Source: Bryopsis sp. KO-2023
Lineage: Eukaryota; Chlorophyta; Ulvophyceae; Bryopsidales; Bryopsidaceae
Reading direction: 5' to 3'
Length of the DNA stretch: 64,000 nt
NCBI GenBank assembly: GCA_030272585.1
Contig: BSYQ01000011.1
Coordinates: 4,216,001-4,280,000, forward strand
In this document: one piece after another, positions 17,528 through 50,727 of the stretch
Layout: the number at the start of each line of letters is the position of its first letter
How positions within the stretch are numbered: the stretch's first letter is position 1
Position numbers and translations under genes: made by a program
The notes under the pieces: generated by a model
What the model was told of the DNA's origin: nothing
The model's database searches: none
Seen by the model: only the letters and a program-made list of their open reading frames with translations

Positions 17528-17529
17528 AG

Positions 17530-17541
17530 TGGTTTCGGAGC
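17530..17541 (+). promoter_or_regulatory. Element B primer-binding site
   Basis: TGGTTTCGGAGC, identical to the other four families. Confidence 0.9.
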
Positions 17542-28900: not shown

Positions 28901-30141
28901 CCTTTTACTGCATCAGTACTTTCCACATTATTAATCAAATGTTCCTCCTGAACTTCCCGAAGATTTACCAAATACATCGGCATACCCTTGCGGGCTGCCC
29001 GAGCAAACTCTTTGGCGGACATCATATCCAAATCTTCAGTACTGCAATCCTCTACTCTACCAGTCTGCATTCTGAGTTTGACTACTCCCTGAGGTGTCTG
29101 CAAAACCAATTTCTTCTTCTGCCAATCTATCATAGGGTTGTGTTTACTCAGCCAAGACATACCTAACACCAGATCATATCTGCCTAGTGTCACTGCATAC
29201 ATCTTTTCCTCTGAAACAAACCTCCCCATCTTGACACTGGCCTGCAGTTCTTTTTCTACCTTCTCTGAAGTCTTGCCATCTGCTAACTGCACTTCAGTAA
29301 CCACCTCAGAAGTCTTTGCCTGAATGTCATTTTCTAGCAACCAATCTTTCGAAACAAAATTGTCGGTTGCACCACTATCTAACAAAATTCTTGCAAAACA
29401 ACCTGCCACAGCCCCTGTGGTCTTCAACAATCCTTGAGTCCCTCCTTGGACTCCTCTCAACTTCAAAACTGGGGGTTCACTTGAACAAACATTCTTGAGG
29501 GAATCTGCACTAAGTTTCCCCTGCTCAAGCTCCTCTCTCACTGAAAAATCTGATGTGTCTGCCCTCAGATCAACATCAGTACCTTTACACTCAATAACAT
29601 TGTGCAGCTCAGGTTCAGGTGGGGCCCCACCTAATCCTGCACTGCCTGACATCACCTGCAGGCTGGGTGTGGCTTCACTTGGCTCATCACCTCCTGCCTC
29701 AGAGACCAGAGTGGTTGTGGCTTTACTCAGCCCACAACCCTCCTTCGTTGTCTCTATATCCTTCACCAAACATTCTGCAAATGTGGCTACACAAGGCCCT
29801 CCACCTGCAAAATTCAACACTGACACTGCAGGATCCCCTTCAGGTATGGCTACACATGGCTCTGTACCTGCAAGGTTCTCCATCATTTTCTTCTTCTTCT
29901 TCTTCTTCTTCTCCTTGGCTGAGGCTACGCATGGCTCTCCAACCTTGGAGTTCTGATTTGAAATTCCTGCTACCCCCCCATTGGTAGCCTCTCTGTGTGG
30001 TGGGCTGCACCGGCCTTCCCACACTCCACTTCTATCCTCCTCCGCCAAGATTTCTCGGCCAGCAGTCTCTCCAGACTCTGGCCTCCTCAGTTTTCCTGAC
30101 AGTCTGCAGCAAAATGTCCTTTCTTGCCGCAGTTGTAACAA
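25945..30141 (-). CDS. pol: Element C pol (protease, RT, RNase H, integrase, chromodomain)
   Basis: About 1,398 codons in the -1 frame relative to gag, overlapping its end (30087-30141). Protease motif [10 protein letters not shown] near residue 255. Reverse transcriptase with [12 protein letters not shown] and YLDDILIFS near residue 620. RNase H ([23 protein letters not shown]). Integrase zinc finger H-H-C-C (CHESPLAGH, then CISCQ) and catalytic segment with [11 protein letters not shown]-terminal chromodomain ([26 protein letters not shown]) near residues 1333-1390, expected to steer integration to modified histones. A poly-Lys tract and a Ser/Gly/Pro linker precede the protease. The frame has no in-frame ATG at its start, so it is expressed by frameshift; no canonical slippery heptamer is visible in the overlap. 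Confidence 0.95.
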
Positions 30142-31268
30142 TCAACATTCGCTGCAGAGTGACCTGCATCCATTCTGCTCCTTCTGGCAGAGATACTCTC
30201 TCCAGATCTCCTGTTCTGCCTCTGTCTGCGAGGACTACCACTGCGTCCTCTGCTTTTACTGCGACTGTCGCTTCGGTTTCTACCAACATCAAAACCCACG
30301 CGGTTACGCTGGAGGCCATCAACCTCCATGCGGTCCCCTAATTGTGGTGTATATTGGTGTGGTGTATACCTATCACGATCTGCGTCAGTTCTGCCACGAC
30401 TAGCACTGCGACCTCGACTCTGCGATCTTCCTCTGCTGTAGGATCGGCCTCTGCTGTAAGATCGGCCTCTGCTCTTTGATCTGTCTCTGCGTGATCCTTC
30501 TTGCCTGCCTCTGGGACTGTGACCTCTGCGTCCCTCTCTGCGGTACGCCTCAAGTGGACCTTCCCAAGTGGCGGCGAGTGCTATCGCACGCTCCAGATCT
30601 GCAGGATCTTCCATTTCAACCTTAGTTCGCAGACGGTCATTCAGGCCCTCTACAAAACGAAACAGCTGCTCTCCAGCGTTGCTGTCATTGATCTGCAGCA
30701 TAAGTCTTCTGAACTGATGCACATACTCAGCAACAGTAGATCGTCCCTGCCTCAGACGAGACCATTCCCGCCTGAAGTCTTTGTTCTCATTCGTTTTACC
30801 AAACTGCTGTCTGAGTGCTGTCACCAAAGCTGGAACGTCCTGTGGCAGATTCAGCTGTCCTGCCATCGCAGCTTCATACCGACCTCTCCACCAAGTGCCT
30901 GCTGCTCCTCTCAAGCATCCTGCAGCCACTAGTACCTGCTGTTCCCTGTCCCTGGTTGCAGTAACATCAAAGTATGTCTGCAACTGGACTTGCCACTCAT
31001 TGAGGGGAACATCATGTGGATCACCATACCACATGTCAGGGCCTTTCGCCCTAGCTCTGCCCAGAGCTGCGGGAGGTTGCTGCTGTGCCATCCTGTTGTG
31101 CACTGCGTTCCGAACTGCGTCGTCCATCTGCACGTTCACGTTGGCTGCTACGTGTCTCAGGTGCTGGACCTCTTCCTGCATGTCCAAGATCATCTGCCTC
31201 AATCCCTGCACGTCGAAGGGATCAGGGGCCGGCATTCCTATCTGCGGCTGCTCGTCCTGTCCAGCCAT
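30087..31268 (-). CDS. gag: Element C gag (capsid, SR-like linker, zinc knuckle; 393 aa)
   Basis: ATG at 31268. The retrotransposon Gag core includes [26 protein letters not shown] and the helix [19 protein letters not shown] long Arg/Ser/Gly linker with repeated RGRSYS units follows, then a canonical CCHC knuckle [14 protein letters not shown] near the end. It makes the virus-like particle and binds element RNA. It lacks the long N-terminal coiled coil and glycine-rich linker of A and D, so C is a more distant lineage. Confidence 0.93.
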
Positions 31269-31848: not shown

Positions 31849-31860
31849 GCTCCGAAACCA
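31849..31860 (-). promoter_or_regulatory. Element C primer-binding site
   Basis: Reads TGGTTTCGGAGC on the minus strand, 1 nt from the 5' LTR. Confidence 0.9.
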
Positions 31861-31861
31861 A

Positions 31862-32334
31862 TGTAGTAAATCCGCCTGCAGACCGCTATTGTGGGCTGCT
31901 GGCTGTGAACTGCAAGCCTGAAACGGCTTGGAGGGAAAGAATAGACGACTTGGAAGCGAGACAAAGGGAGTTCAATCCCAAAGTAAGGTTACAAGAACGT
32001 TCAAACCCCAAGAACTTATAGAATACCCTAGCAGCCTTGATCCTAACTGATCATAGGCTGTAACATCAGTCTGCATCACTGCTGCAAGGCATCAGACCTT
32101 GCAGTCCTTTCAATCAGAGCCCAGCTCAGCCCCACGGCCATTCCTGTGGTGCTGAGCGACCTTCTAGAACATTCTAGCTGCCAGCTCAGTAGTCCACGTA
32201 CTACTTCACTGCCAGCACACCCTGACTGACTGTACGCTGCCTCAGGGCAGCCAGCCTCCTACTTAAAGTACTGCAGGACTGTCAGCAAGCCTGCTGACGT
32301 ACTGCAGGGCTGTCAGAAACCCTGATTCGCTACA
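31862..32334 (-). repeat. Element C 5' LTR (473 bp)
   Basis: Upstream LTR in the element's own orientation. Matches 23940-24412. Confidence 0.96.
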
Positions 32335-32339
32335 TCCTA

Positions 32340-33626: not shown

Positions 33627-36233
33627 AGGTCCGAGGCGCAGGACCACCAGCCTTGGACCAGGAAACGGGTGGTGATGAGGCCAGCGATCCGGGAGATCAA
33701 GGGCAAAGGGAAAAAAGAGTACGCTGGAAAGACCAGCCGGAAGAACCGAAACACAGCTCCAGTCCGCAAGACAGTCCCCAAGATACAGCAGATGTGCGGA
33801 CCGGGTCACCAGGGACGGGACCCTTGAGAGGAGCCACCGACGGTCAAGGGCAAGAACAGCCCGTGGGGCCATCGGACCACTCGGAGCGTGATGCATCACT
33901 TGAACCAGGGAAAGGTCAAGGAGCTACCGAGGTGGATGGGGAAGTGCTAGGGCAGGCACTTAGTCGGACCGGTTCTGCGACGGCCGACAATTTTTCTTTT
34001 TTAGCTAAGACCGGCGGGGCCGGCAAGAATAGTCGTTTTACGGGGTTTGAAATAAGGGTTTTTATTAATGACGTGCCAGTAGTGGCTTATGTCGATTCGG
34101 GCAGTTGGGAAAATTACCTTTCGAAGGAAGTAGTGGAGAAAGTGGGTGTAAAGGTTTTCCCCGAACAACGGACTTTGGTTATGGCAGATGGTTCCAGGAA
34201 ACAGGTTACAGGACGAGCGGACCGGTTACAGTTCCGGTCCGGATCAGTTAATTTTGTGTCCGATTTCCACTTGTTCCCTGGAATGGCATATGAAATGATA
34301 TTGGGAATTCCATGGTTGGTTGCCGAAAACCCCGATTTGTGTTTTCGCACTCGGACCATTAAGGTTCGTCGGGGCCGGAGCCAACTATCATTACCATTAG
34401 CTATTTCAACTCAGCCAAAACCAACTGAAGTCATGAGTATTGGGGGTTTGGAACCGACATCCGCCACCAACGTTTGGCGAGGGATACGAGCCAACGATTG
34501 TGGAGCTTTGATGGTGGTAGTTACGGAAGTGGAGCCAGAAGACGGACATCAGAAGGACGATGTGGAGCGACTGATTCGGGAGGACACCTCTCGAAAGATT
34601 TCGAACCTACTGGAGAGCTATCGGAGAGTATTTGCCTCGGATCTGCCCAAGGGACCACCACCGGTCCGAAACGGGCACGAGTTCGAGATCAAAGTTGAGG
34701 AGGGGACGAAGCCAATCTTTCGTCCCATGTATAAACTATCTCCGGCGGAGCTTCAGGAGGTCCGTAAACAGCTGGACTACATGTTGGACCGGGAGTTGAT
34801 CCGGCCCTCCAAGAGTCCATGGGGCGCACCGGTCCTCTTCGCTAACAAGAAGGACGGTGGCCTTCGCTTTTGCATCGACTACCGCTGGCTCAACCAGAGG
34901 ACCATCAAGAACCGCTATCCACTACCGCTACCCGAGGAGCTATTGGACCGACTACAGGGAGCTAAGGTGTTTAGCCGGTTGGACCTGCGATCCGGCTACT
35001 GGCAGATGCCGATCCGGCCTGAGGACCAGGAGAAGACAGCGTTCCGGACCCGGTACGGACACTACGAGTACAAGGTGGTGCCATTTGGGCTCACAAACGC
35101 CCCTCCGCAGTTTATGGCTATGATAAACGACCTGTTCCGGGATTTCCATGACCGGTTCATGGTCGTGTTCCTCGATGACATCATAGTCTACAGCAAGAAC
35201 GAGGAGGAGCATGCGGAGCACCTACGCTTGGTATTGGACAAGCTAGCGGAGCACAACCTGTACGCGAAGGCATCGAAGTGTTCTATCGCCGTGAAGGAGT
35301 TGGATTTTGTGGGCCATTGGATCTCGGCGAATGGAATCTCGCCGCATCGGTCCAAGGTCCAGGCGATCCGGGATTGGGAGCCGCTGACCTCTGTTCCTGA
35401 GGTCCGAAGTTTTCTGGGGATGGTTTCGTATTACCGTCGCTTCATTCGACAGTTTTCGAAGGTAGCGGCGCCGATCCAGAAGCTTGTGAAGAAGGACCAG
35501 CCATGGGAATGGGGAGCCGAGCAGAAGGCAGCTTTTGAAGCCCTGAAGGCAAGTCTGACGACGGCTCCGGTCCTGCTGATACCGGATCCGGACAAGCCAT
35601 ATGTAGTTGTCACGGATGCTTCGGATTTTGCGCTGGGAGCCACATTGATGCAGGAGGCTGACGATGGACTTCAACCGGTGGCGTTCCTCAGTAGGTCCCT
35701 CAACTCGGCCGAACAGAAGTACTCGGCCTATGAAAGGGAGCTTTTGGGCATTTCCTATGCCCTGGCTCAATGGCGCCATTATCTCGAAGGAGCGCCAAAA
35801 GGGACCACTGTCTACACGGACCACCAGCCCGCTACACATTTCCTCCAGCAACGGGTCCTGTCTCGGACCCAGACCCGCTGGTTGAAAGCGGGATATTTTC
35901 AGTCTATTATGCCGAAGATCGTCTACCTCCCGGGCAGATCCAATGTGGTGGCTGATGCATTGTCACGCAAGCCTCAGCTCAAGTTGAATGCAATTTTGGA
36001 GGCCAAAATTTCGCCCGGGGAGGCGCAGGAATGGACGCAAGCGACCACTGATGACCCTACTTTGAAGCGTATTCTGGACCGGAATGGACGCAAGCGACCA
36101 CTGATGACCCTACTTTGAAGCGTATTCTGGACCAACTGGACCAAGGACGACATGTACCCGGGTATTCTCGGACCGAACCGGGAATGCTTTTATATCAAAC
36201 CGAACCAGGAGTGGACCCAAAACTAGTGGTCCC
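33551..36233 (+). pseudogene. pol: Element A pol, part 1 (protease, RT, RNase H), frame broken by 53-bp duplication and element D
   Basis: Open from the gag overlap, -1 relative to gag. Protease [11 protein letters not shown] near residue 180. RT with [13 protein letters not shown] and [11 protein letters not shown] near residue 540. RNase H ([28 protein letters not shown]). A 53-bp tandem duplication at 36028-36133 shifts the frame and gives a stop at 36116-36118. The original frame can be followed through the second copy up to element D at 36233. The integrase half continues at 46333. Ignoring duplication and insertion, the whole pol is a multiple of three. Confidence 0.9.
36028..36133 (+). 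repeat. 53-bp tandem duplication inside element A pol
   Basis: Two exact copies, 36028-36080 and 36081-36133, each beginning GGAATGGACGCAAGCGACC. 53 is not a multiple of three, so it breaks the frame. Confidence 0.95.
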
Positions 36234-36654
36234 TGTTAGTCTTTTAGCGCTCACGAGGTAGTTTGGGATAGAGCCGAGGGTGGCTGACGCATGTGGGTTC
36301 ACGAGTAAGACAGATTAGACCCAGAGTTTGGGGCATGCGTCAGCGTACTACACTTAGGGGTACTTAAGAGGCCCACTCGTTGTTTTGACATTCATTCACT
36401 TTACTTTGTAAGAACTCGGGATTCGTGGGATTGGTGTGTTCCCGCTTGTGTGTGTGTTTGTGTGTGTGTGTTAAGTGTTTGCCTGACGCAATCACTTCCC
36501 AACCCAAGTGCTCTAGTAGCGTTCACAACCGCGCTAGCTAGAGAGTTGTCTAAACCAACAAACCCCACAAGTATACTTGCGTTAGCCAGCAAGTTATCAC
36601 GAATCCAATCAACACAGCCGACCACTATTGCGTCACCCACAAGCTTCACTATCA
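36234..36654 (+). repeat. Element D 5' LTR (421 bp)
   Basis: Contains four TGACGCA/TGCGTCA heptamers and a (GT)n stretch near 36451-36471. Same sequence as 45907-46327. Confidence 0.97.
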
Positions 36655-36799: not shown

Positions 36800-39451
36800 A
36801 TGGCTGACCGTGAACACGCATTGGCAGTGCGCGAGCCTCAAGTTGAAGAGCCAGGGATTGAACCTGAGTTCGATGAGGAATTGCCTGACGCACCCAATGT
36901 GGTGTACCAACAAATAAACGTCCAGAACATCCACAATGTCCAGCAAGCAGCTGTCGACATAGACATGGGAGCTGATGCGGAAGCCTTAAGAGAGGATGTG
37001 GATGCGGTCCATGACCGTGTGGACGATTTAGCCCACGGGCTAAGGGGTCACCTGCAGCAAGTTGACCAGACACTGGGGCAGAGGCTAGCCCATGCTGAGG
37101 CCTCTGTGTCGAACCAACTGGCTGGTGCATCAGAGGTGATCGGGCAGGCGCTGGAAACACAGCACCAGCATGCGCAACAGGTTGAGGCCACACAGCATGC
37201 GGTGGTGTCGCAACAGCAGAAGCTGGATTCAGTAGCGGCTCAACATAGTCGATACGAGCAAAGGCTATTACGCCAAGATATCGACCATAGAAAAGAAAGA
37301 GCCGAGATCAAAGCTTCTGTGGACGCAATAACGAGGAGAATGGATGCCGCAGACATTCTAGCGGACTCTCGTTTTGCTGACCTAAAGGAAGCAACTGAAG
37401 CATCAGCACTTCAGTTAAAACAACTCTCCGAGTTATCCCTTGTTCAAGGGCGGAGAATTGAAGGCTTATTAGGAACTGTTGCGGATTCCAACGAAAAAGT
37501 CGAACGGACTCTAGAATTGTTTCGGGAGTCCTTGCACAAACAAGGTGCTGAGGTGAAGCGTTTGCAGAGCTCCAGAGTAGCAATTCAAAAAGATTTGATT
37601 GCCTTGGAGAAAAAGGCAGCCAAGACCTGGGATCAGCAGCAAGATGCAGCTGATGTGGTTGCCTTAAGATTATCTGGCCTGGAACGAAGCATGGAGGATG
37701 TGAGTGGCGGAAGTCAGAGTGCCCAAAGTGGAAGTGATGCTCGAGCAGTATCACCAGAGCGAGAAGAATCAACTTCTCCTGAGCCTGAGGACTCAGCCTT
37801 TGGGATGCCGCTGCCGAAGAAATCAGTAAAGCAGTTGGCTGCATCATGGCCGCCACTAGACCAGAGCTTCGCGGTAGGAATGGTTGGGGCAGGAACCTCA
37901 ACAATACCGGCTCCTCCAGCAGTACAGGTCGAGGAGGGTGAAATTGTTGCTGCAGAAGCACCACCATGCACTGCAGTGGACAGCGCACCAGACGCTGATT
38001 TCACATTCCCTCAATTGATACCTCCGAGTACAAGAGCTCAGCCTGGAGTACGCATCTCAGAACCCGACTCTGCCGATGGATCACGTAGACCCACACGAAC
38101 TAACCCAAGAGTTCTCTCCTCAGCAGAAGTGTTATATCAAATTGATCTTGAGCGTGCTAAGGCACAGGTCAGAGAAGAGAAAGGAAAAGAACCCATGCAG
38201 ATTCCCACACGTACTGGAAGATTGGGACTTGGGTTAAGTGCATTGGGAGCAAGGGTAGAAAATAATCCCTTTGCTGCACTTGGTTCATATGAGTCTACTG
38301 GTGGACCCAGTCGAGTTCCTCGCATGCGAGGTAACTTTGGAGACCCTGGTGATGACGACCCAGATGATGATGGCGGTGATGATTACCGCGACAGACGAAA
38401 CCGCCCACCTTCCCGCATTCCAGGTGCGCCTGATGGCGGAGGAGGTGGTGGCGGCGGTGGAGATGGTGGAGGCGGTGGACCTCCCGGTGGACCTCCTGAT
38501 GGAGGTGGAGGTGGAGGTGGCGCTGGACCAGCAGGCCCAGGACCTCCTAGGCAAGGACAGTGGTTGCCTAGCACCGTCAAGTTGCAAATGCCTCGCGCAT
38601 TTAACGGAAGTGGAGAACCAAAAGCCCGTAAATGGCAAGTGCTCATGACGCGGTACTTGAGAACCTGCGGAGTGCATGAAGCACAGTGGCAATCGATTAT
38701 GGCCACTAACCTTTATGGGGCTGCCTCGGATTGGTTAACGATGCAAGAGTTGAAAATTCACCGAGGTGAAAGACCACCCTTCCGTGACTGGATGGACTTC
38801 ATGGATGGCTTAGCTACAGCTTTCGAATTCTCTAGTGATCGAGATGAAGCGTGGCGTGACCTCCACAAACTCAAGCAGACTGGAACCGTGAAACAGTTTG
38901 TAAAAGAGTTTCAGCGGTTAGTCTTGAGGATTCCAGACCTCGAAGAGGATCACCAGTATTTGCTCTTCGTGGATGGACTTAAAAGTGAAGTTCAGAAGTT
39001 AGTCGCAGCAACGGTACCTCGAGATGTCGAGGCCGCCATCATATCCGCCGAACGATTGGAAGCCCTTGGAGTTGGAACACAAGGCCAAGGAGGGCAGACC
39101 AATCAGAAAAAGAAAGGAGTCTGGCGTGGTGGAAGAAAGAAGAAAGGCCAGAATCAGGGTCAGCAGCAGCAGAACCCTACACCACCAGCCCAAGCACCAC
39201 CACAAGCTGCCGCAGGAGTGCAACAGCAGCAGCAACAGCAACAAGGACGAGGAGGAGGACGTGGTGGTGGTGGACGTGGACGCGGTGGTGGTAACCGTGG
39301 AAGAGGACAAGCCAATCAGGGAAGACAGAACCCCCAGGGGGGAGGGGGATATCATTGTTATCTTTGTGGAAAGAAGGGTCACCCTGTGAGGCAATGTCCT
39401 AGATTGGAGGAGGTGAAAAACCTCCCCGATGTAAAAAAAATGTTAAACTGA
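36800..39451 (+). CDS. gag: Element D gag (883 aa; coiled coil, Gly linker, capsid, zinc knuckle)
   Basis: ATG in CCATGGCTG context. Roughly the first 300 residues are heptad-rich, suggesting a coiled coil (ALREDVDAVHDRVDDLAHGL). A Ser/Pro/Glu-rich spacer follows, then a poly-Gly/Pro linker near residues 540-580, then the Gag core (KWQVLMTRYLRTCGVHEAQW, AASDWLTMQEL, GTVKQFVKEFQRLV). Next comes a Gln/Gly/Arg-rich tract and the canonical zinc knuckle CYLCGKKGHPVRQC. It is much longer than a typical Ty3/gypsy Gag because of the N-terminal coil. No ORF0 lies in the 131 nt between primer-binding site and ATG. Confidence 0.94.
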   Translation: MADREHALAVREPQVEEPGIEPEFDEELPDAPNVVYQQINVQNIHNVQQAAVDIDMGADAEALREDVDAVHDRVDDLAHGLRGHLQQVDQTLGQRLAHAEASVSNQLAGASEVIGQALETQHQHAQQVEATQHAVVSQQQKLDSVAAQHSRYEQRLLRQDIDHRKERAEIKASVDAITRRMDAADILADSRFADLKEATEASALQLKQLSELSLVQGRRIEGLLGTVADSNEKVERTLELFRESLHKQGAEVKRLQSSRVAIQKDLIALEKKAAKTWDQQQDAADVVALRLSGLERSMEDVSGGSQSAQSGSDARAVSPEREESTSPEPEDSAFGMPLPKKSVKQLAASWPPLDQSFAVGMVGAGTSTIPAPPAVQVEEGEIVAAEAPPCTAVDSAPDADFTFPQLIPPSTRAQPGVRISEPDSADGSRRPTRTNPRVLSSAEVLYQIDLERAKAQVREEKGKEPMQIPTRTGRLGLGLSALGARVENNPFAALGSYESTGGPSRVPRMRGNFGDPGDDDPDDDGGDDYRDRRNRPPSRIPGAPDGGGGGGGGGDGGGGGPPGGPPDGGGGGGGAGPAGPGPPRQGQWLPSTVKLQMPRAFNGSGEPKARKWQVLMTRYLRTCGVHEAQWQSIMATNLYGAASDWLTMQELKIHRGERPPFRDWMDFMDGLATAFEFSSDRDEAWRDLHKLKQTGTVKQFVKEFQRLVLRIPDLEEDHQYLLFVDGLKSEVQKLVAATVPRDVEAAIISAERLEALGVGTQGQGGQTNQKKKGVWRGGRKKKGQNQGQQQQNPTPPAQAPPQAAAGVQQQQQQQQGRGGGRGGGGRGRGGGNRGRGQANQGRQNPQGGGGYHCYLCGKKGHPVRQCPRLEEVKNLPDVKKMLN
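39433..39439 (+). promoter_or_regulatory. Element D -1 ribosomal frameshift site (A AAA AAA)
   Basis: In the gag frame the codons read GTA AAA AAA ATG, giving a canonical X XXY YYZ heptamer nine nt before the gag stop. The -1 frame is open from 39403 into pol. Secondary structure downstream was not assessed. Confidence 0.75.
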
Positions 39452-42400
39452 CTGCCAGGCAGGAAACTGCTTCGTCTGAGCCTGGCCGACGCAAACGTCG
39501 TAAGCGAAACAGAGTTCGTAGGCGGCGTAGGAAGCTAAGATCAAAAGTAGGTGCCTCGAAAAAGGTTTGTACTCACAGCGGAAAACCTGAGGAGCGGACT
39601 AGTACACCGCGTGAAGAGAGAACAGAGACACTCTCCACATCTACCCAATCGGCACATGACAACTGCGATTGGAAAAATGAACAGAAGGAAAGCACACCGG
39701 ATGAGATGGACGCGCCTCATGCGTCATCTGCATCTCTTCCCTCTGTTAGTGAATCTGTGGGCTCATTGGAGTCGCAGAGTAGTCTACAGGAGTCCCTGCC
39801 TGCAGACGTAGACGATAGTGGGTCAGAAACAACCCAGCGGTCTACCACAGAGCGAGTTAATGTGTCAGAAGTTCGATCAACTTCGTCAACCAAGGGTGAC
39901 ACATGCCCTCTGTTAAAAATTCAAGAAGTGCCTGTGAGAGGGTACGAAGTAAAAGCACGGATCAAGACCACGGACCTTTATGCATTCATTGATTGTGGAA
40001 GTACCGCAAATTATATCAATGATAAGGTAGCGCGTGATCTCGGGTTGTCGATTACACCAAGCTCCAAGAGAGCAATGTTGGCAAACGGAGATATTAAAGA
40101 ACTGGCTGGCAGCTGTAACAACCTCCGAGTAAAGATAGGAGGGCTGAAGTGCAAAATGAAAGCGGATCTGTTCCCAGACCTTGGTTATGACCTAATATTG
40201 GGCATGCCTTGGTTGCAGAAAGAAAACCCCCGCATAGACTTTCAGCAGAATGAGATTTCAGTTTGCAAAAACAGCCAAGTGTTTCATCTCCCGTTGCGAC
40301 ATCCAACCCAAGAGAGTATTGAACCTGAACGAAAAGTACAGTCGATACTGCAAGAAGTGCCAGTGACTGAGTGTTCAGCTAAGAGAATGATGCGTCATCT
40401 CAAAACAGAGACAGCATTCATGGTTGTAGTGCAAGAGTCTGAAGAGAAAGCTTTAGGCCAACATGAATTGCCTGACGCAATAGAGCGAACACAGCCATTC
40501 AACACTGAGGATGAGATTGGCAAACTTATTCGTTCAGACACCCCTGCCGAAATTAAAAAGGTGGTAGAAACACACCGTGGTGTGTTCCCTCGTGATTTAC
40601 CCCCAGGGATCCCTCCGAAGAGAAAAGGTCATGAGTTCAAGATAGACCTGGAGGATCCAACACCTATCCATCGTCCAATATACAAGCTTTCACCAGCAGA
40701 GCTGGATGAAGTGAAAGCACAAGTGGACTACCTTCTGGAACAGAAGAAAATCAAACCATCCGAGTCCCCTTGGGGCGCGCCAATCCTATTTGTACCGAAA
40801 AAGGATGGAGGCTTAAGGATGTGTGTGGATTACAGGTGGATCAATAAGGTGACGGTGAAAAACCGGTATCCTTTACCCCTGCCAGAAGAATTGATGGATA
40901 GAGTGTTCAAAGCCAAAGTGTTCTCAAAGTTAGATCTGCGATCAGGCTACTGGCAATTTCCAGTAAGGCCATCTGATACAGATAAAACAGCGTTCCGCAC
41001 GAGATACGGTCACTTTGAGTTTTTGGTAGCGCCTTTTGGGCTAACCAATTGCCCAGCGCAATTCCAAACTCTAGTGCAAGACCTACTCGCAGAGTTTTTA
41101 GATGATTTTGTTGTTGTCTTTATCGATGACATACTCATCTTCTCTGAAAACATGGAACAGCATGTCGAACACTTAGAGAAAGTCCTGTCGCGACTAGCAG
41201 AATATCAGCTTTTTGCTAAGGCAAGTAAAAGTGAGCTGGCTGTCGCAACAGTAGACTATCTTGGCTACCGCATTAGCGGAAGTGGGTTAAAACCACAGGA
41301 ACAAAAAGTGAAGGCAGTGAAGGAGTGGAAGGAACTACAGAGTGTTAGCGATGTACGTAGTTTCCTTGGAATGGTTTCATACTACAGGAAATTCATTCCC
41401 CAGTTTGCACATGTTGCTGGACCACTCCATGACTTAGTGAAAAAAGACCATCCCTGGAGATGGGGACAGGTTGAGCGTGGCGCATTCAATGAACTGAAAA
41501 AGCGTTTAAGTCAAGCTCCCGTCCTTATTTTTCCAGATGCGTCACTGCCTTACACTGTGATCACTGATGCGTCGAATGAGGCCATCGGTGCCGTGTTAAC
41601 ACAGGATCACGGAGAGGGGCTACAGCCAATAGCTTACCTCTCACGTAGATTCAAGCCTGCCGAGCTTAACTATGCACCATACGACAAAGAGTTGTGTGCA
41701 ATATGTTATGCGATGGTGCAGTGGAGACATTATCTAGAAGGTTGTGCGGGTGGAGTAACAGTGTTCACTGACCACCAACCTCTGACGCATATTCTGTCGC
41801 AGAGGAACCTTTCTAGAACCCAAGCAAGATGGCTTGAGGCGGGGTACCTGACTTCGATCAACCCCAAGATCTCCTATATCAAAGGCAAGGCTAATGTGTT
41901 AGCAGATGCTCTCTCCCGCAGTGTTCCTAAGCCCGTGGAAACTGCGATGAACATTTCCACTTGGCAAGTGCATCAAGCAAGCCAAGACGAGTGGAAACAA
42001 GCCCTCCAAGCTGATAACTCCTTGGTGAAGATATTGCGGAAGCTTGAGAGTGGCGAGGAAGTTGAGGGATATTTCCTCAGAGAGGGAATACTCTGGACGG
42101 TCCCAAAGAGAGGATTAGTCGAGAAAGTGGTGGTTCCTAAAGGCCAGCGCAATAAGATTATGAAGGAGTGCCATGAGACACCTTCAGCAGGCCATACAGG
42201 ACCAGCGCGAACAGGAGAAATCCTAGCGCGGCGATATTGGTGGAAGGGGTGGATGAATGAGTTGAAGGCATTTGTGCGCGAATGCCCTGTGTGCCAACAA
42301 ATAAAGGCTGACACACAGAAGCCTATGGGCTTACTTCAACCCCTGCCAATACCTGAGCGGAAGTGGGAGCAGATTACCACTGACTTGGTGACAGATCTAC

Positions 42401-43446
42401 CAGCATCTAATGGGTTTACTGCTGTAGCTGTCTTTGTCGATAGACTTACCAAGTTTGTGCATTTCGCCCCATGTACTAAAGAGATTACCGCTGCAGGATA
42501 CGCCCAACTTTTTATCGAACATGTTTACCGCAACCATGGCCTACCTAAAGTGATTGTGTCTGATAGAGACCCTCGCTTTACCAGCAAGTTCTGGCAGACG
42601 CTTTTTAAAGCTCTGGGTACAGAGATTCGTATGAGTACAGCTTACCACCCTCAGACGGATGGGCAGAGTGAGGTTACCATACGTACTCTGGAAAATTTTC
42701 TAAGGCCATATGCTGAGAGGTATCCCCACAAGTGGGTTGAGTATTTACCTACAGCAGAGTTTGCAGCAAACAATGCAGTGAATGCGAGTACAGGGTTCGC
42801 ACCTGCATACTTGATGTATGGGTACCATCCAGAAACACCAAACATTGGTGGGACGGCAACGCAATTTCAAGTGGAAGCAGTTAAGACTATGGTAGCACGG
42901 ATGGCACAGGACTTAGATACCGCAAAAGCATATTACTCTAGAGCACAACACAGAATGTGTGTGAGTGCAAACAAGAAGAGGAAAGATGTTGCTTTTGAGA
43001 AAGGGGATAAAGTCCTGATAAAAAGCCGTTTTATTCCGTTGGCTGCTTTGAACAAAGTGAGTCCCAAACTGCGCCGTCGATTTGTGGGTCCCTTTGAAAT
43101 TGTGGAGAAAATATCAAAGGTGGCTTACAGAGTTCAACTTCCGGAAACATGGCTCATTCACCCAGTGTTTCATGTTTCTAAGTTCAAGCGTTATCACGCC
43201 TCGAGTGATAACAGCAGGCAGATACAACCTCCAGAAGGAGAGTTGATTGGTAGCGAAGTAGAGTATGAGGTCGAAAATATCCTAAGGGCTAGAGGTAAAC
43301 GCAATCGTGAATACCTAGTGCTGTGGAAAGGATACGATCTACTTGACGCTACTTGGGAACCTGAAGCTAATCTGGTTAACGCACCAGATATACTTCGCGC
43401 ATTTAAAGAGAAAGAAAGAAAAGAGTTGCAGAAAGGAAGAGAATAG
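39439..43446 (+). CDS. pol: Element D pol (protease, RT, RNase H, integrase, chromodomain)
   Basis: -1 frame product after the slippery site; the first in-frame ATG is at 39706. A very basic stretch (RRKRRKRNRVRRRRRKLR) comes first. Counting from 39706: protease AFIDCGSTANYI near residue 96, with Cys in place of the usual Ser/Thr after the catalytic Asp; RT with APFGLTNCPAQF and VVFIDDILIFS near residue 472; RNase H (ITDASNEAIGAV, TDHQPLTH, ADALSRS); integrase HHCC finger (CHETPSAGH, CPVCQ) and VSDRDPRFTS with the later Glu; chromodomain near 1185-1240 (YEVENILRARG, YLVLWKGY, TWEPEANL). Full-length and uninterrupted. Confidence 0.95.
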   Translation, partial: NVKLTARQETASSEPGRRKRRKRNRVRRRRRKLRSKVGASKKVCTHSGKPEERTSTPREERTETLSTSTQSAHDNCDWKNEQKESTPDEMDAPHASSASLPSVSESVGSLESQSSLQESLPADVDDSGSETTQRSTTERVNVSEVRSTSSTKGDTCPLLKIQEVPVRGYEVKARIKTTDLYAFIDCGSTANYINDKVARDLGLSITPSSKRAMLANGDIKELAGSCNNLRVKIGGLKCKMKADLFPDLGYDLILGMPWLQKENPRIDFQQNEISVCKNSQVFHLPLRHPTQESIEPERKVQSILQEVPVTECSAKRMMRHLKTETAFMVVVQESEEKALGQHELPDAIERTQPFNTEDEIGKLIRSDTPAEIKKVVETHRGVFPRDLPPGIPPKRKGHEFKIDLEDPTPIHRPIYKLSPAELDEVKAQVDYLLEQKKIKPSESPWGAPILFVPKKDGGLRMCVDYRWINKVTVKNRYPLPLPEELMDRVFKAKVFSKLDLRSGYWQFPVRPSDTDKTAFRTRYGHFEFLVAPFGLTNCPAQFQTLVQDLLAEFLDDFVVVFIDDILIFSENMEQHVEHLEKVLSRLAEYQLFAKASKSELAVATVDYLGYRISGSGLKPQEQKVKAVKEWKELQSVSDVRSFLGMVSYYRKFIPQFAHVAGPLHDLVKKDHPWRWGQVERGAFNELKKRLSQAPVLIFPDASLPYTVITDASNEAIGAVLTQDHGEGLQPIAYLSRRFKPAELNYAPYDKELCAICYAMVQWRHYLEGCAGGVTVFTDHQPLTHILSQRNLSRTQARWLEAGYLTSINPKISYIKGKANVLADALSRSVPKPVETAMNISTWQVHQASQDEWKQALQADNSLVKILRKLESGEEVEGYFLREGILWTVPKRGLVEKVVVPKGQRNKIMKECHETPSAGHTGPARTGEILARRYWWKGWMNELKAFVRECPVCQQIKADTQKPMGLLQPLPIPERKWEQITTDLVTDLPASNGFTAVAVFVDRLTKFVHFAPCTKEITAAGYAQLFIEHVYRNHGLPKVIVSDRDPRFTSKFWQTLFKALGTEIRMSTAYHPQTDGQSEVTIRTLENFLRPYAERYPHKWVEYLPTAEFAANNAVNASTGFAPAYLMYGYHPETPNIGGTATQFQVEAVKTMVARMAQDLDTAKAYYSRAQHRMCVSANKKRKDVAFEKGDKVLIKSRFIPLAALNKVSPKLRRRFVGPFEIVEKISKVAYRVQLPETWLIHPVFHVSKFKRYHASSDNSRQIQPPEGELIGSEVEYEVENILRARGKRNREYLVLWKGYDLLDATWEPEANLVNAPDILRAFKEKERKELQKGRE

Positions 43447-43896: not shown

Positions 43897-45711
43897 ATGG
43901 CTGCCGATACACCCGCCGCAATTATTGCGAGGTTGGAAGCGGAGGTAGCTCAAAAAGAAGAGGAGCTGCAGCACTTTGTTACGACCGCAGAGGAAGTGCT
44001 GCAGAACAATGAGGCCTTAACCCGGCAGCTCTCAGAGTTGAGTGACCGGACGAAAGCAGCTGAGGCTGCGAAGGAGGCAGCGGAGAAAGCCAAGGAAAAG
44101 GCAGAGGCGGAAAAGAAAGAAGCGGAGGACAAGACTAAGGTCTTGGAAGAAAAATTGGAAGCCATGAAGCTGAAAAAGCAAAGGTTCCAATCTCACATGA
44201 TGGCTAACCATCGTGAGAATGACCTCCGTAAACAAGCTCTCGGGGGAATGGTGGATCGATTTACCGCGGTAGAGGAAACGTTGCAGCGAGCTGTAGCAAC
44301 CGCGTGGAGTGCAGCAGCCAACAACCTTAAGAAGGAATTGGCAGAACAAGAGCTGCAGATCGATTTGCTGGGAGAGTCCCTCAGAGACGGCTCTGAAAAA
44401 CTTCAAGTGCAGAGCGAAACAACGGACAAGATGCTGCGTTTGAACCCGCCGGTACCAGCACCACGGGTACGCGAAGAACTGGATCGCCAAGTCCAAGTTC
44501 TGTTGTCAAACGCAACACTTGATCTGGAACCGTCCAAGGACGATGATGCGGGAGGCTCAAGCAAGGGCAAGGGGAAAGGGAAAAACAAACGCCCAAGCTC
44601 GCCGTGTAGGGATGAAGATCCACACGGAAAGAGAAGGCGAGAGGACGGTGACGATGAAGGTGGTGAGCCACCGAGGGATCGTATGCCTGGAGATGCAGCA
44701 AGAGCCAACTTGTTACTCAAGTTAAAGGCTGCCGCATTAAAGACTCCAGCACCCTCACAACCAGCACCAACAGTTCAGACTCCCGGAGATGAGGCTACCG
44801 CAATAGCACCGGGGGAGGACTTATTCGACATCAGAGAGGAGGAGCTTTTGGACTTGGATTTTAACGAAGAAATTGACTTCGGCAGTCCACCTCCTAGGCT
44901 CGAAGGTCCTAGTTCTGAACTGGAGGACGGGGAAATAAGGAATGATGAAGGGCCAAGCCAGGTGACAGAGGTTCAGCGTGCGGTCCATCCACCGTTGGAG
45001 TTAGCTCCAACAGAAGCAGCACTTCGGGCTTTCCGAGAAAAGGTTAAGCTCAGAAGACTAAAGGCGGCTGCTCAGGACAAAGTGGATGCTGCACCTAGCG
45101 AAGTGAACCTGTCACGGGAGGATATCGAGGAGGCTTGCAACCCCATCACTGCGTCAGAGAAATGGCCGAAGGTCCAATATACTAACCCCAGGGACCGAGC
45201 CTTGCAAAATTACCGCGGCAACCGGCACTTTCACGAGTTGCCCATGTGCATTTGGTGCGGGAGAAGCCCAATGCAAGCAAGTGCTCAGCGGCTGACGCAG
45301 AAGAAGTATTCCGTCCTTCCTTGTGGGTATCACCTCGTGTGTGATGCTCATTGGTTGGCATACTCGATGCTGGGGCGCATCGTCACGGCGGTCCAAAAAG
45401 TCGCGGAAGTGGACAACAAGTCCATCGCCACCGTCTCCCCATTCTCTCTACCTGCCCATATGTTGAAGCTGACACGCTCGACGTTCGAAGAAATCCCTCC
45501 GTTCCCGGCTGAGCACGAGAAGTTGCCACACTGCAACATGTGTGTGAAGCGGCAGCTCAAGGTGTCCGGCATCACAAGGGATCTGCCATTCCTTAAGTCC
45601 AAGAGGGTGGCTGCCGCATTTGATCCCTGTGTCCGGTATCGTGCAGTGCAGCAAGCGCATGCGCAGGAGCAGCGTGCTAATCAGCAAGCGCAAGCGCCGG
45701 AACAGCGTTAA
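43897..45711 (+). CDS. Element D ORF3: coiled-coil plus RING-like zinc-finger protein (604 aa)
   Basis: ATG at 43897 (AGAATGGCTGCC). N-terminal start MAADTPAAII. Residues about 10-110 are a strong coiled coil (Glu/Lys/Ala heptads). A basic tract with GKGKGKNKRP and KRRR looks like a nuclear signal. An acidic middle follows (EEELLDLDFNEEIDF). The C-terminal cluster is C451-x2-C454-x21-C476-x2-H479-x2-C482-x2-H485, then C546-x2-C549, matching RING-type ligand order with a 60-residue last spacer. LPCGYHLVC is shared with element C ORF3 (FPCGQHRVC). Not homologous to any Ty3/gypsy env or aORF I recognise. Preserved open in a recently inserted element, so probably functional. Confidence 0.8.
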   Translation: MAADTPAAIIARLEAEVAQKEEELQHFVTTAEEVLQNNEALTRQLSELSDRTKAAEAAKEAAEKAKEKAEAEKKEAEDKTKVLEEKLEAMKLKKQRFQSHMMANHRENDLRKQALGGMVDRFTAVEETLQRAVATAWSAAANNLKKELAEQELQIDLLGESLRDGSEKLQVQSETTDKMLRLNPPVPAPRVREELDRQVQVLLSNATLDLEPSKDDDAGGSSKGKGKGKNKRPSSPCRDEDPHGKRRREDGDDEGGEPPRDRMPGDAARANLLLKLKAAALKTPAPSQPAPTVQTPGDEATAIAPGEDLFDIREEELLDLDFNEEIDFGSPPPRLEGPSSELEDGEIRNDEGPSQVTEVQRAVHPPLELAPTEAALRAFREKVKLRRLKAAAQDKVDAAPSEVNLSREDIEEACNPITASEKWPKVQYTNPRDRALQNYRGNRHFHELPMCIWCGRSPMQASAQRLTQKKYSVLPCGYHLVCDAHWLAYSMLGRIVTAVQKVAEVDNKSIATVSPFSLPAHMLKLTRSTFEEIPPFPAEHEKLPHCNMCVKRQLKVSGITRDLPFLKSKRVAAAFDPCVRYRAVQQAHAQEQRANQQAQAPEQR

Positions 45712-45906: not shown

Positions 45907-46327
45907 TGTTAGTCTTTTAGCGCTCACGAGGTAGTTTGGGATAGAGCCGAGGGTGGCTGACGCATGTGGGTTCACGAGTAAGACAGATTAGACCCAGAGT
46001 TTGGGGCATGCGTCAGCGTACTACACTTAGGGGTACTTAAGAGGCCCACTCGTTGTTTTGACATTCATTCACTTTACTTTGTAAGAACTCGGGATTCGTG
46101 GGATTGGTGTGTTCCCGCTTGTGTGTGTGTTTGTGTGTGTGTGTTAAGTGTTTGCCTGACGCAATCACTTCCCAACCCAAGTGCTCTAGTAGCGTTCACA
46201 ACCGCGCTAGCTAGAGAGTTGTCTAAACCAACAAACCCCACAAGTATACTTGCGTTAGCCAGCAAGTTATCACGAATCCAATCAACACAGCCGACCACTA
46301 TTGCGTCACCCACAAGCTTCACTATCA
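45907..46327 (+). repeat. Element D 3' LTR (421 bp)
   Basis: Same sequence as 36234-36654. The GTCCC duplication follows. Confidence 0.97.
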
Positions 46328-46332
46328 GTCCC

Positions 46333-47638
46333 TACCACAAAACGACAAGTGGTGTTGCACGATCACCACGATGTTCCGATGGCGGGACATCCAGGAGTGG
46401 CCAGGACGGCCGAGCTCGTGAGCCGAAGATATTGGTGGCGCGGTTGGAGACGAACCGTGACCGACTATGTCCGCTCGTGCCCCACATGCCAAGTGATGAA
46501 GACCGAGAACGCGAAGCCCAAAGGATTGCTGAATCCGCTTCCCGTTCCGACATATAAGTGGGAACAGCTGACAACGGACCTTGTGACCGATTTGCCGAAA
46601 TCGAATGGGTATACCGCTGTAGCTGTCTTTGTGGACCGGCTCACAAAAATGTGCAAGTTCGTGCCATGTACCAAGGAGGTATCGGCAAAGGAGTATGCCG
46701 AGTTGTTTCTATCCCAGGTGTTCCCTACCTCAGGGATACCTGAAGTGATCGTTTCGGATCGCGATCCACGGTTCACGAGCCAGTTCTACAAGGAACTGTT
46801 CAGGCTCGTAGGAACGGATCTGCGGATGTCAACAGCTCACCATCCACAGTCGGATGGCCAGAGTGAAGTAACGATCCGAACCCTGGAGAACTTCCTTCGG
46901 CCCTATATTGAGGCCAGGCCGGAGAAGTGGAGCGACTACCTGAGCACGGCAGAATTTGCAGCGAATAACTCGATCAACGCCAGTACCAAGTACACGCCGT
47001 TCTACCTTATGTACGGCCAGCACCCGAAGGGATTGGAGTTGGACCGGCCCAAGAGCAATGTTGAGGCCGCAGAAGCCATGGTGGACCGAATGCGGGACGA
47101 TTTGATGGACGCGAAGAAGAACTACCACGCCGCCCAGGAGCAAATGTGCCAAGTAGCCAACAAGAAAAGGAGGCACGTGGAGTTCCAAGTGGGCCAAGAA
47201 GTGTGCCTACGAAGTGCACATCTTCCGTTGGCCGTGACCAAGCATGTTCCAGCCAAGGTCCGAAGACGGTTCATCGGGCCATTCAAGGTGACCAAAGTGA
47301 TATCACCGGTGGCCTACCGCATTGATCTACCAGAAACATGGCGACTACATCCAACCTTCCACGTCTCCAAACTCAAGGAGTATATACGTTCCGAGGAATT
47401 CAAGAGGGACGATCCTCCAGGACCGGCTCTGGTGGACGAACTAACTGGAGCCGAGGAATTCGAAGTGGAGACGGTTCTACGATCCAAGGGAGCTGGAAAA
47501 AGAAAGAGGTACCTGGTACTATGGAAGGGTTATCCGACCCATGAGGCCACATGGGAACCGGTTGCACATCTGGAACACTGTGCAGAATTGTTAGCTGAGT
47601 TCGAAAGGAAAAACTCAGCCAAACATGGCCATAACTGA
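46333..47638 (+). pseudogene. pol: Element A pol, part 2 (integrase, chromodomain)
   Basis: Resumes A pol after element D. Integrase zinc finger (HHDVPMAGH, CPTCQ), catalytic core with TTDLVTDLP, VSDRDPRFTS and the later Glu region, GPF-like segment (RRRFIGPFKV), and a chromodomain (FEVETVLRSKG, YLVLWKGY, TWEPVAHL) before the stop. The piece itself is undamaged; it is separated from its RT half by element D. An open frame reading from the D LTR into it is an accident of insertion. Confidence 0.92.
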
Positions 47639-47949: not shown

Positions 47950-49146
47950 ATGGCTGCACCGACTCCTGTCTCCAGCGCCCTTGATGCGTTAAATGCAGCG
48001 TTCACTGAGGAGACAAAGAGGTTACAGGCCACGGTAGCGGCACAAAAAGAAAGGATTCAGCAGCTTGAGAATGAACTAGCCGCTACAAAGGAGGCACTGG
48101 CGAACGCTAGGAAGGAAGCAGAAGGGGACGCGCGAAAATGGGGACGGAACCGTGAGGCGGAAATGGTTACAGGGATAGAGAAGGCAATAGGAGTTCTGGA
48201 AGGAACGTTGAAACAGCTGAGCGTCGCAGACGCAGGGGGAATTGATCAGATGCGCGGAAGGGAAACGGATCGAGCCAAAGAGGCAGAAGGGGGACAGTCA
48301 GAGCAACCATCTGACGAAGAAATGGATGAGCCCCCGAAGTGGAAAACCACCAGACGTCGTAACAAGGTGTTGCGTCGAAGCTCCTTCATACTGGACGAAG
48401 CTACGGAGGTGGATCTGAGTGAGGGAGATATCGGAAGTGAGGAAGGTGCCGTCGAAGAAATGGTGGATACAGATCAAGAGGAATGGGACTCTCTTTACGG
48501 GACTGAAAGTAAGATGGACGTGAACCCCCCTTCGCGACCACCCACTACCGAGTCCGAGCCTGCCATCGTTCCACCTGGTCTCGCACCGTCTCCCAGTATC
48601 CCGACGTCACCAACAGCACCGAGCGTCGTAGCCCCATTCAGTTGCATTGCGTGTGGGGTTACGCGAACGGTCCCACGCCAAACGGACCAGGTCCTATGCC
48701 CCCGCAATCACCTCGTGTGCCGGACCCACCACGCGGGATATCGCATCGCCGTGCGAGCCGCTAAATTCTACGAGCAGGGCCTCACCCCGACAACGGCGCA
48801 ACTGCTAGCCAATTCGGCAGACCCGGTCCAGGGCGCGGTTGAACTTGTGCCGCAATGGGGTAACCCGTTCCCGAGTTGCCCCATGTGCCAAAAAGACGTT
48901 CTCCCGCTCTGGACCGGGAAAAGCAAAAAGCAGCTGCGCGACTGGAACGCGGCTTACCTCAAGGCCGTTGGGGTGGATCCCGTTGGGAATCGACAAGCGA
49001 GAGGAACTTCACAGGGAGCGGTATCAACGGAGCAAACGCAGGAACGGACCCAGGAGCAGCGTGGAGAGCACTCAGGAGGATCTTCGCAGCAAACGCAGGC
49101 GATCCAAGGTCCCAGAACGCGACTTCGCAGTCGTGGCCAGAAATGA
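47950..49146 (+). CDS. Element A ORF3: coiled-coil plus RING-like zinc-finger protein (398 aa)
   Basis: Starts MAAPTPVSSALDAL, alike to element D ORF3 (MAADTPAAII). Residues about 15-65 form a coiled coil (KERIQQLENELAATKEAL). An acidic, Ser/Pro-rich middle follows. The cluster is C232-x2-C235-x14-C250-x3-H254-x2-C257-x2-H260, then C310-x2-C313, again RING-like, with LCPRNHLVC at the centre. A Gln/Arg/Thr-rich tail ends TRLRSRGQK. The frame is intact although A pol is damaged. Confidence 0.78.
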   Translation: MAAPTPVSSALDALNAAFTEETKRLQATVAAQKERIQQLENELAATKEALANARKEAEGDARKWGRNREAEMVTGIEKAIGVLEGTLKQLSVADAGGIDQMRGRETDRAKEAEGGQSEQPSDEEMDEPPKWKTTRRRNKVLRRSSFILDEATEVDLSEGDIGSEEGAVEEMVDTDQEEWDSLYGTESKMDVNPPSRPPTTESEPAIVPPGLAPSPSIPTSPTAPSVVAPFSCIACGVTRTVPRQTDQVLCPRNHLVCRTHHAGYRIAVRAAKFYEQGLTPTTAQLLANSADPVQGAVELVPQWGNPFPSCPMCQKDVLPLWTGKSKKQLRDWNAAYLKAVGVDPVGNRQARGTSQGAVSTEQTQERTQEQRGEHSGGSSQQTQAIQGPRTRLRSRGQK

Positions 49147-50317
49147 GTTACAACAGGTCTAACCTGTTGGGACCAGTGGAGTGATTGGTGTGTTTGTTTT
49201 CTTTTGGTTATAAACTTTCTGGACTGGGACCAGTTTTTGATTCATATTTGCTATACCTGTTTGGATGGACCCAACAGTCAGTTTGGGATTTGTTTTATTT
49301 TGCATACCATCCATTTTCTGTGGAACCATGAGGGAGTTCTGTTTTTGATCTGGTTATGATTTCCTGTTTTATTGAAGTATCAATTTGGGTTATTTGGGTG
49401 TTCAGAATCAAACATTTGAGTGGATCCAGGCTGGGATCCAGAGGTTACCTTACTTTTCTTTCTAAGGTAACAGGGAACTATATCGATTTTGCAGACATTA
49501 TTGGATCCAGGGGTTTCTTTTGTTTTGATTATTGGATCCAGGGGTTTTGTTTGGTTGTTGGATCTCAAGGTAACAGTGGTCAAGGGGACCAGTGTCGGAT
49601 GGACCGATAAGAACCTTGTTTGTTTTTGAACACAAACATTTTTGGCATGTAAAAAGGTTCGGGGTGACTTGGGTTGTGTAAACTGATCTCCTCTCATATA
49701 CGTGGTGCTCGGGACGCGCACTTGATGGGGGGGTGAAACGGATTTGTTTCCTGAGGCTGAATACTTCCAGCCGCCACTTAACCCGTTCTTCACACACGTT
49801 GGGAGACGACCAGAAGTTCTGTAAGAAAGGTCTGAGACACGAGAGTATACAACTGAATCTTATTTCAACAAGCTTGTTCTTTACAACGATCCCCAGCCTT
49901 TTATACTCTCAGCCCAGAGCTTCTAGAGAACTCCCAGCCCATCTCCTAACCTTACAAATACTAGCTATCATCTAGCTCTCCTCAAAACGTCTCTATCATT
50001 TCTCAGCTCAGCCCTTCTAGCCAGAGCTCCGACTAACCCTTTATAACCCTTGATAACCTCTAGACTAAGGACCCAGACTGAAGCTCCTTCCAGTCTGACT
50101 CCCGACTCTCTACCCAAACTCTCAGCCATCTGAGATCTGACACTGAATATACTGAACCTGGTTCGAACTCTTTTCACTACGTTTCAGCCTCTCGTTGAGC
50201 ATCACGTAACTACCCCATTCCAGTCAGTCCGCGACTACCTGGAACTCTCAGACTGTAACCTCTGTTTTCCGCCTAGATCTTCGCCTACTAAGTCAGCCGT
50301 TTCAGGGGGGGAGTGGT
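49147..50317 (+). other. Element A non-coding tail with polypurine tract
   Basis: About 1.17 kb without coding signals. A 20-bp direct repeat ATTATTGGATCCAGGGGTTT occurs at 49497-49516 and 49528-49547 (period 31). The tail ends TTCAGGGGGGGAGTGGT, the likely plus-strand primer, against the 3' LTR. Confidence 0.6.
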
Positions 50318-50727
50318 TGATACGAATGTGGACTCTGGAACGAGTACACATTCACCCAAGTCGATCCAGTCGGACTGGATCAGCCTGGTCCGGTAATCAG
50401 TGCCTGGTTCGGTACCAGAGCCGGTCCAGCAGTACAGTCCGACTGACCCAAGTGAGAGGTGGACACGGTGGCAGTTACCGTGTCCACACAATCCAACCAA
50501 CGGTCCTGAGAAGGATTTGGTCTGGATCTGTCGGTCCAGTGGACGCTGGGTCCGACAGCTCTCAACCGTTCCTTTTGCCAGGTTGTCGGTCCGGCCCCAT
50601 ATTTATTGGATCCGGACCGAGGTAACAATGTTCTAGAGTAAGCTTGTAAGCAAAGACTCTTATCCGTGTTTCCGTGGTTCTAGACGTAACGTCTACCACT
50701 ACTCGATACTTTCCCGTGTTTTTATCA
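50318..50727 (+). repeat. Element A 3' LTR (410 bp)
   Basis: Matches the 5' LTR by eye. The TTCAT duplication and the continuing satellite follow at once. Confidence 0.97.

Follow-up and report, generated by a model that had tools for sequence, protein, structure and literature searches.

What protein is encoded by the additional open reading frame (ORF) that three different retrotransposons of the green alga Bryopsis sp. KO-2023 carry between pol and the 3' long terminal repeat (LTR), and why is it kept? The stretch that we analysed, 64,000 nucleotides of a 91-Mb genome of 28 contigs (G000:C11:4216001-4280000, hereafter the window), contains the elements A, C and D, which are Ty3/gypsy chromoviruses as judged by reverse transcriptase (RT), RNase H, integrase, chromodomain and LTR flanks (for A, the shared 3' end alone was located). 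A first-pass annotation of the window had claimed for each of them an independent, ATG-initiated frame after pol, here called ORF3, with a C-terminal Cys/His cluster in the ligand order of RING fingers. The coordinates and lengths of the three frames (398 amino acids (aa) in A, 280 in C and 604 in D) all check out; each is a separate sense frame 3' of a chromodomain-containing pol, at 450 (D), 311 (A) and 57 (C) nucleotides from the pol stop, and the cluster is present in all three. As described below, ORF3 of A, C and D are members of a large unnamed gene class in this genome, which is under purifying selection and which, to judge by profile searches, extends beyond chromoviruses. That ORF3 represents a conserved accessory family we regard as nearly certain.

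The cluster reads CIWC..CGYHLVC-x2-H..CNMC in D, CIAC..CPRNHLVC-x2-H..CPMC in A and CTLC..CGQHRVC-x4-C..CGLC in C. It is not due to chance: in 200,000 shufflings of each whole protein the pattern arose 0 times in every case. The A protein has six cysteines in all, every one of them a ligand. A coiled-coil character was judged by visual inspection and from weak matches of the A-type alignment to PDB profiles (best expectation value (E) 0.0037), and basic stretches occur in several family members. Our comparison set comprised 31 ORF3 sequences, three from the window and 28 fetched from the same genome, falling into 23 families at 70% identity; we excluded L039, whose ORF3 frame is broken, and the truncated or close copies L051, L058 and L060, and L096 and L100 were added later, outside the 31. 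The pattern C-x2-C-x(8-21)-C-x(2-3)-H-x2-C-x(2-4)-[H/C]-x(38-60)-C-x2-C is found in 31/31, a count that is partly a selection effect because most of the sequences were fetched for matching. The sixth ligand is His in 19 of them. In the A type it is a His after x2, and CPxCxK is present in 15/15; in the C type it is a Cys after x4, with a hydrophobic residue at C1+2 and Trp at C6+5, both in 12/12. The D type comprises D and L092, and the A2 type L075 and L077. One A-type gene of 208 aa (L056, G000:C8:2548700-2550200) gave no chromodomain match in the upstream pieces fetched, and could be a stand-alone host gene.

A second sample of ten loci was chosen by chromodomain match alone and away from noted ORF3 matches, any bias thus being against ORF3. 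Four loci carried a cluster-bearing ORF3 (L075, L077, L092 and L093). As a point against a general chromovirus accessory, five had no ORF3 among sense ORFs of at least 110 aa in the roughly 2.4 kb searched (L073, L074, L078, L079 and L080, of which L073 and L080 are one family). The remaining locus, L076, is interrupted by a D insertion.

The ratio of nonsynonymous to synonymous substitution rates (dN/dS, Nei-Gojobori) of ORF3 was 0.13, 0.15, 0.28, 0.19, 0.15, 0.27, 0.25 and 0.13 in the eight pairs with measurable dS, among which L043 appears twice, L041/L042 rests on 9 changes and L049/L050 on 10; in L037/L057, L038/L057 and L036/L037 dS was saturated and gave no ratio. Among copies, the corresponding ratio of proportions (pN/pS) was 0.12 in D (8 copies), 0.11 in A (12) and 0.29 in C (12). 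ORF3 is therefore under purifying selection, as the first-pass annotation had claimed: all measured ratios lie well below 1, and none is near 1, the value named in advance as contrary to the claim. On the other side, ORF3 is mostly less constrained than pol, with pol tail and ORF3 values of 0.02 and 0.13 in one comparable pair, and of 0.13 in pol against 0.27 and 0.25 in ORF3 in the other two; the 3' part of pol at the same loci as the copies gave pN/pS of 0.07 (D), 0.02 (A) and 0.34 (C).

ORF3 type follows pol clade. In a tree of 24 integrase/chromodomain rows, from which 8 near copies or partial rows were omitted, each ORF3 type forms a single clade (73/79 for A, starred for C, D and A2), and there are 3 switches between presence and absence of ORF3. 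In this tree L084 is labelled as having none though a D copy interrupts the piece downstream of it, L076. L081 differs little from L088, and L093 and L086 are long branches. There are signs, in the aligned sequences, that ORF3 may be exchanged as a cassette between closely related elements. L033 is 98.7% identical to A over 1172 nucleotides (window 46656-47827), through pol and about 190 nucleotides past it; beyond a breakpoint shortly after pol no DNA alignment is obtained for the N-terminal half of ORF3, and identity returns, at 78%, in the zinc domain and 3' end. In L037/L038 dS is 0.515 for ORF3 and 0.084 for pol; in L043/L044 it is 0.064 for ORF3 and 0.84 for pol, and C copies show this same direction.

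We searched type-specific profiles against 1534 ORFs from the loci collected and the window. The A profile reached the A2 members L075 at 9.1e-6 and L077 at 0.046, and the A2 profile reached A at 2.1e-6. The four best outside matches of the D profile were all of A or A2 type, at weak values (0.0045-0.032). No A, A2 or D ORF3 was matched by the C profile better than 1.9, and HHalign of A against C gave 1.3%. By these results A and A2 form one family, which D probably joins, and C stands apart: it shares only architecture and ligand order with A and D, and its homology to them is not proven. Of the earlier proposal of an ORF3 common to A, C and D, the shared architecture stands, the A-D link is weak at the profile level, and a profile link of C to either is missing.

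The same proposal had missed that homologues of ORF3 are not confined to chromoviruses. With a C profile built from chromoviruses only, L100 matched at 5.9e-11, L054 at 2.4e-9, L053 at 1.5e-8 and L096 at 5.7e-7, the next match being 0.47; the corresponding A profile matched L041 and L042 at about 3.5e-25. The C-type genes L053 and L054 lie on contig C4 in the same direction, with starts 14 kb apart, and flank a 1386-aa frame with Helitron_like_N (1.6e-42) and PIF1 (1.6e-51) domains, both above the Pfam cut-off. We infer that the two belong to a Helitron element. The gene pair recurs in five places, at a spacing of about 14-15 kb except in one, where it is 23-24 kb; against this assignment, the Rep/helicase frame was seen at one of the five, the one that was read. 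The A-type L041 and the C-type L096 are divergent neighbours, and two adjacent frames next to L041 matched CxC5 (2.6e-4) and KDZ (0.018), both below the Pfam cut-off. Of the CxC5 frame the genome holds six full copies plus a fragment. L041-type and L096-type genes adjoin 6/6 of the full copies; the exception is one of the seven L096-type rows (on C8), which has no KDZ neighbour. Finding the two types together in this KDZ-like element suggests that they work as a pair. The dN/dS of the Helitron-linked L053/L054 (0.28) and KDZ-linked L041/L042 (0.15) are two of the eight given above. Tandem repeats of about 186 bp (L096:1662-2701, L041:1-384) and about 166 bp (L099:1-1890) lie in or beside the KDZ-like element. 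L100 itself (G000:C4:7148600-7151300) is a C-type gene behind a 187-aa ORF and an integrase-like tail; the tail, recognized by eye, has neither a Pfam name nor a chromodomain, and about 29 rows resemble L100, which alone was read.

The C-terminal domain resembles RING fingers (PF13923, PF13920, PF24921, PF14447) in ligand order, in predicted topology and in weak Pfam matches. The eight ligands follow the RING order C-C-C-H-C-[C/H]-C-C in 31/31 ORF3 compared, with the selection effect noted above, and the structure models of the A and C domains (mean pLDDT 88.7 and 74.4) have a knuckle, a beta-beta-alpha unit, an insert and then the last C-x2-C with a helix. C-type domains matched three Pfam families, all of them RING (best 0.002; from the near-identical L049 and L050, and from L047), and RING accounts for two of the eight families matched by A-type domains (best 0.044), all below threshold; across ORF3 domains the weak matches are to PF13923, PF24921 and PF14447.

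Other results do not bear out a RING fold. Foldseek found nothing in the PDB at E<=0.001 for the A or C model, and nothing in BFVD for A; VIA gave none for the A model, and for neither model did Foldseek or VIA yield a clear match; HHalign against ten host RINGs gave 1.5 and 2.8%; and no ORF3 scanned had a Pfam match above cut-off. The best RING match (0.002, L049/L050) scored 18.6 bits against a cut-off of 50 and covered positions 1-24 of 57, the Pfam scan gave no RING match for L044, L048, L053, L056 or the D domain, and in A-type domains Zn_Tnp_IS91 (0.011) and DUF2752 (0.018) outscore RING. None of the host RING loci was reached better than 1.1 by any ORF3 type profile. The spacing also differs: ORF3 has C-x2-H or C-x3-H followed by x2-C, whereas the host RINGs have C-x1-H-x3-C (8/10) or C-x1-H-x2-C (2/10), and, unlike RING fingers, ORF3 has 38-60 residues before the last pair and, in 19/31, His as sixth ligand. 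Because the RING profile match is not significant, we do not class ORF3 as RING. A RING fold is so far not supported as a confirmed identity, given the Foldseek and HHalign results; as a likeness it keeps the ligand order, the topology of two models and some sub-threshold Pfam matches, and we hold a RING-like cross-brace to be somewhat more probable than not.

Some A copies have lost the zinc domain altogether. On contig C4, the A matches at 595032, 604390, 1714486 and 3969918 retain residues 1-94 or 1-102 and then 319-397 or 398, and a match on contig C10 (2832794/2833013) retains residues 1-75 and 322-397; a 1358-aa pol frame lies directly upstream in all five. At least five A copies, four of them sharing a like deletion, therefore lack the domain, which tells against its being required. 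To judge by the like deletion, such copies, with pol open, seem to have spread, and the zinc domain is not required in cis. These copies would allow for supply in trans from intact ones, and equally for a dispensable ORF.

We propose that ORF3 is a transposon accessory protein in which an N-terminal coiled coil would serve self-association, followed by an acidic or proline-rich middle part and a C-terminal domain whose eight Cys/His ligands would hold two zincs in RING-like order and predicted topology. It would act in trans on something common to its carriers, most simply host silencing of transposon chromatin or transcripts, and the zinc domain may contact a partner in the ubiquitin pathway or in chromatin. 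The carriers move by reverse transcription, rolling circle and cut-and-paste, and it is because elements with such different modes of movement share little machinery beyond the host that we place the action of ORF3 on the host. This explanation taken whole has, in our estimate, an even chance of being right, and counter-silencing as the role falls slightly short of that. More speculative, and in our view rather unlikely, is its extended form: a mobile counter-silencing module, that is a RING-like coiled-coil family of two possibly paired types which in a single siphonous alga has spread across LTR retrotransposons, Helitrons and KDZ transposons, is traded as a cassette and disables the same host defence via the ubiquitin pathway.

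The strongest competitor makes ORF3 a RING E3 ubiquitin ligase whose targets for destruction would be host proteins of silencing or restriction, as with a viral RING protein such as herpesvirus ICP0. The ligand order agrees with it, as do the C-type residues at C1+2 and C6+5, which we take to be the E2-contact positions of RING E3s (in Cbl the Trp is at C6+4), and the sub-threshold match of L049 to a Pfam E3 RING; the side-by-side A-type and C-type genes of the KDZ-like element would be in keeping with an E3 heterodimer. Set against these are the profile and fold searches, in which no RING was matched significantly, the long C6-C7 insert, and Ala, Cys, Gly or Ser at C1+2 in 14/15 A-type rows. 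On this sequence evidence a genuine E3 ligase is possible and on the whole unlikely.

Alternatively, ORF3 may be a zinc protein that binds RNA or DNA and works without ubiquitin, either as a nucleic-acid chaperone or as a suppressor of silencing; cysteine-rich coiled-coil proteins act as silencing suppressors in some plant RNA viruses. Such a protein would fit the Cys/His cluster, the basic stretches of several members and the zinc-ribbon and transposase zinc-domain matches in Pfam (E 0.011-0.49) that stand alongside those to RING. A role inside the particle is, however, at odds with homologues in Helitron and KDZ-like elements, and a CCHC knuckle is already provided by gag in C and, in weak form, in D; we consider this reading a little less probable than the ligase.

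The divergence between A and L033, nearly identical through pol and unalignable in the N-terminal half of ORF3 before similarity resumes in the zinc domain and 3' end, would also suit a sequence-specific anti-silencing protein like VANC, whose diverging part recognises the non-coding sequence of its own element. VANC targets often form tandem repeats (PMC5735166), and in the KDZ-like element the repeats of about 186 bp separate the two divergent genes. Against it, around ORF3 of A, C and D there are short tandem arrays alone, such as five copies of 8 bp ahead of the D 3' LTR; we hold a VANC-like function to be unlikely, a little more so than the two preceding alternatives. That ORF3 is a mere passenger, or env-like, and plays no part in transposition, as chromovirus loci lacking ORF3 and the spread of zinc-domain-deleted A copies could be taken to suggest, is highly improbable given dN/dS well below 1, the same ORF3 type throughout each pol clade and homologues adjoining DNA-transposon genes.

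The proposed accessory protein has precedents. TET/JBP dioxygenase genes are carried by unrelated fungal DNA transposons, including KDZ and Helitron, and are thought to counter silencing (PMC12730594); like ORF3, they are one accessory family across unrelated transposon superfamilies. They differ in encoding an enzyme of known family in fungal DNA transposons (PMC12730594), whereas ORF3 is a zinc-cluster protein of a green alga and has LTR retrotransposons among its carriers. VANC of the VANDAL elements shares with ORF3 its coding by the element, a possible counter-silencing role and fast divergence; it belongs to Arabidopsis DNA transposons (PMC5735166) and is likened to ORF3 here by description, not by sequence. 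In plant and bdelloid LTR elements, the extra ORFs treated in passages of PMC7264820 and PMC5408684 are env-like, antisense or captured functions, and include, as with ORF3, a sense ORF between pol and the 3' LTR; a word search of the two main texts did not find the word RING. In our searches nothing in Pfam, among solved structures or among named proteins fitted ORF3, and no report of such an ORF was found in the portions of the literature searched. Transposon-coded helpers are already known; a zinc-cluster family that a green alga has in both LTR and DNA transposons is a new form of them. Few cases of countermeasures encoded by transposons are known (VANC, TET/JBP), and a zinc-cluster family retained by elements with different modes of movement would point to a common host defence.

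The genome holds many copies of these genes. For the whole D protein, 73/73 scored matches were stop-free (298 candidates), and its C-terminal part has at least 150 nearly identical copies, 150/150 of those scored being stop-free (275 candidates). ORF3 of A has 21 near-full-length, stop-free matches at 93% identity or more, besides partial and deleted copies, and that of C has 33 matches spanning residues 1-280, stop-free in 32/33. Intact frames alone tell little here, because the copies are young. The role of ORF3 should be testable in a 91-Mb genome with so many nearly identical D copies. Database matches were to three proteins, all called 'hypothetical', of which two are fused to pieces of pol, and genes of this kind may therefore go unnoticed elsewhere; among the three, a Bryopsis sp. 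KO-2023 hypothetical protein is 98% identical to the D protein (P0001) across 29% of its length. The public gene models P0004 and P0005, set against D in the window, join pol and ORF3 pieces across many gaps and are probably annotation artefacts.

The features of the three elements are collected in Table 1. D is nested inside A, with a 5-bp duplication and identical LTRs. Element C is complete: its 478-bp LTRs differ by 1 mismatch, read TG to CA, and are flanked by a 5-bp duplication, TCCTA.

Table 1. Positions in the window of ORF3 and of the other parts of elements A, C and D
Feature	Position	Strand	Detail
ORF3 of D (P0001)	43897..45711	+	604 aa, ATG-initiated open frame
ORF3 of A (P0002)	47950..49146	+	398 aa, ATG-initiated open frame
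ORF3 of C (P0003)	25045..25887	-	280 aa, ATG-initiated open frame
Zinc-ligand cluster, D ORF3	45247..45543	+	residues 451-549
Zinc-ligand cluster, A ORF3	48643..48888	+	residues 232-313 (structure model: residues 226-358)
Zinc-ligand cluster, C ORF3	25273..25488	-	residues 134-205
pol of D	39706..43446	+	protease, RT, RNase H, integrase, chromodomain (Pfam)
gag of D, with long N-terminal part	36800..39451	+	Pfam Retrotrans_gag 1.2e-10
5' LTR of D	36234..36654	+	421 bp, identical to 45907-46327; GTCCC flanks
3' LTR of D	45907..46327	+	LTR pair
pol of A part 1, interrupted by D	34181..36118	+	RT, RNase H (Pfam)
pol of A part 2	46379..47638	+	integrase, chromodomain (Pfam)
3' end of A, probably 3' LTR	50305..50727	+	common to 11/11 copies compared
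pol of C	25945..29886	-	with chromodomain (Pfam)
gag of C	30087..31268	-	Pfam
5' LTR of C (minus-strand element)	31858..32335	-	99.8% identical to 23936-24413
3' LTR of C	23936..24413	-	LTR pair

Elsewhere in the genome, a tandem array of a D-derived unit carries five D ORF3 copies at an exact spacing of 10,264 bp (G000:C9:272881-314515). Many of the stop-containing ORF3 fragments among the matches listed lie on contig C2, at about 0.1-6.4 Mb, which may be a region where old transposons persist, for instance one of low recombination. Within the window, element B (17219-23648) has 309-bp LTRs and a TTGGA duplication, is without a long internal ORF and is apparently non-autonomous. The 3' boundary of A, at about 50727, is the start of a 55-bp satellite, whose arrays occupy 14568-15915 and 50728 to about 59339, and an array with a 57-bp period is found at 62653-64000.
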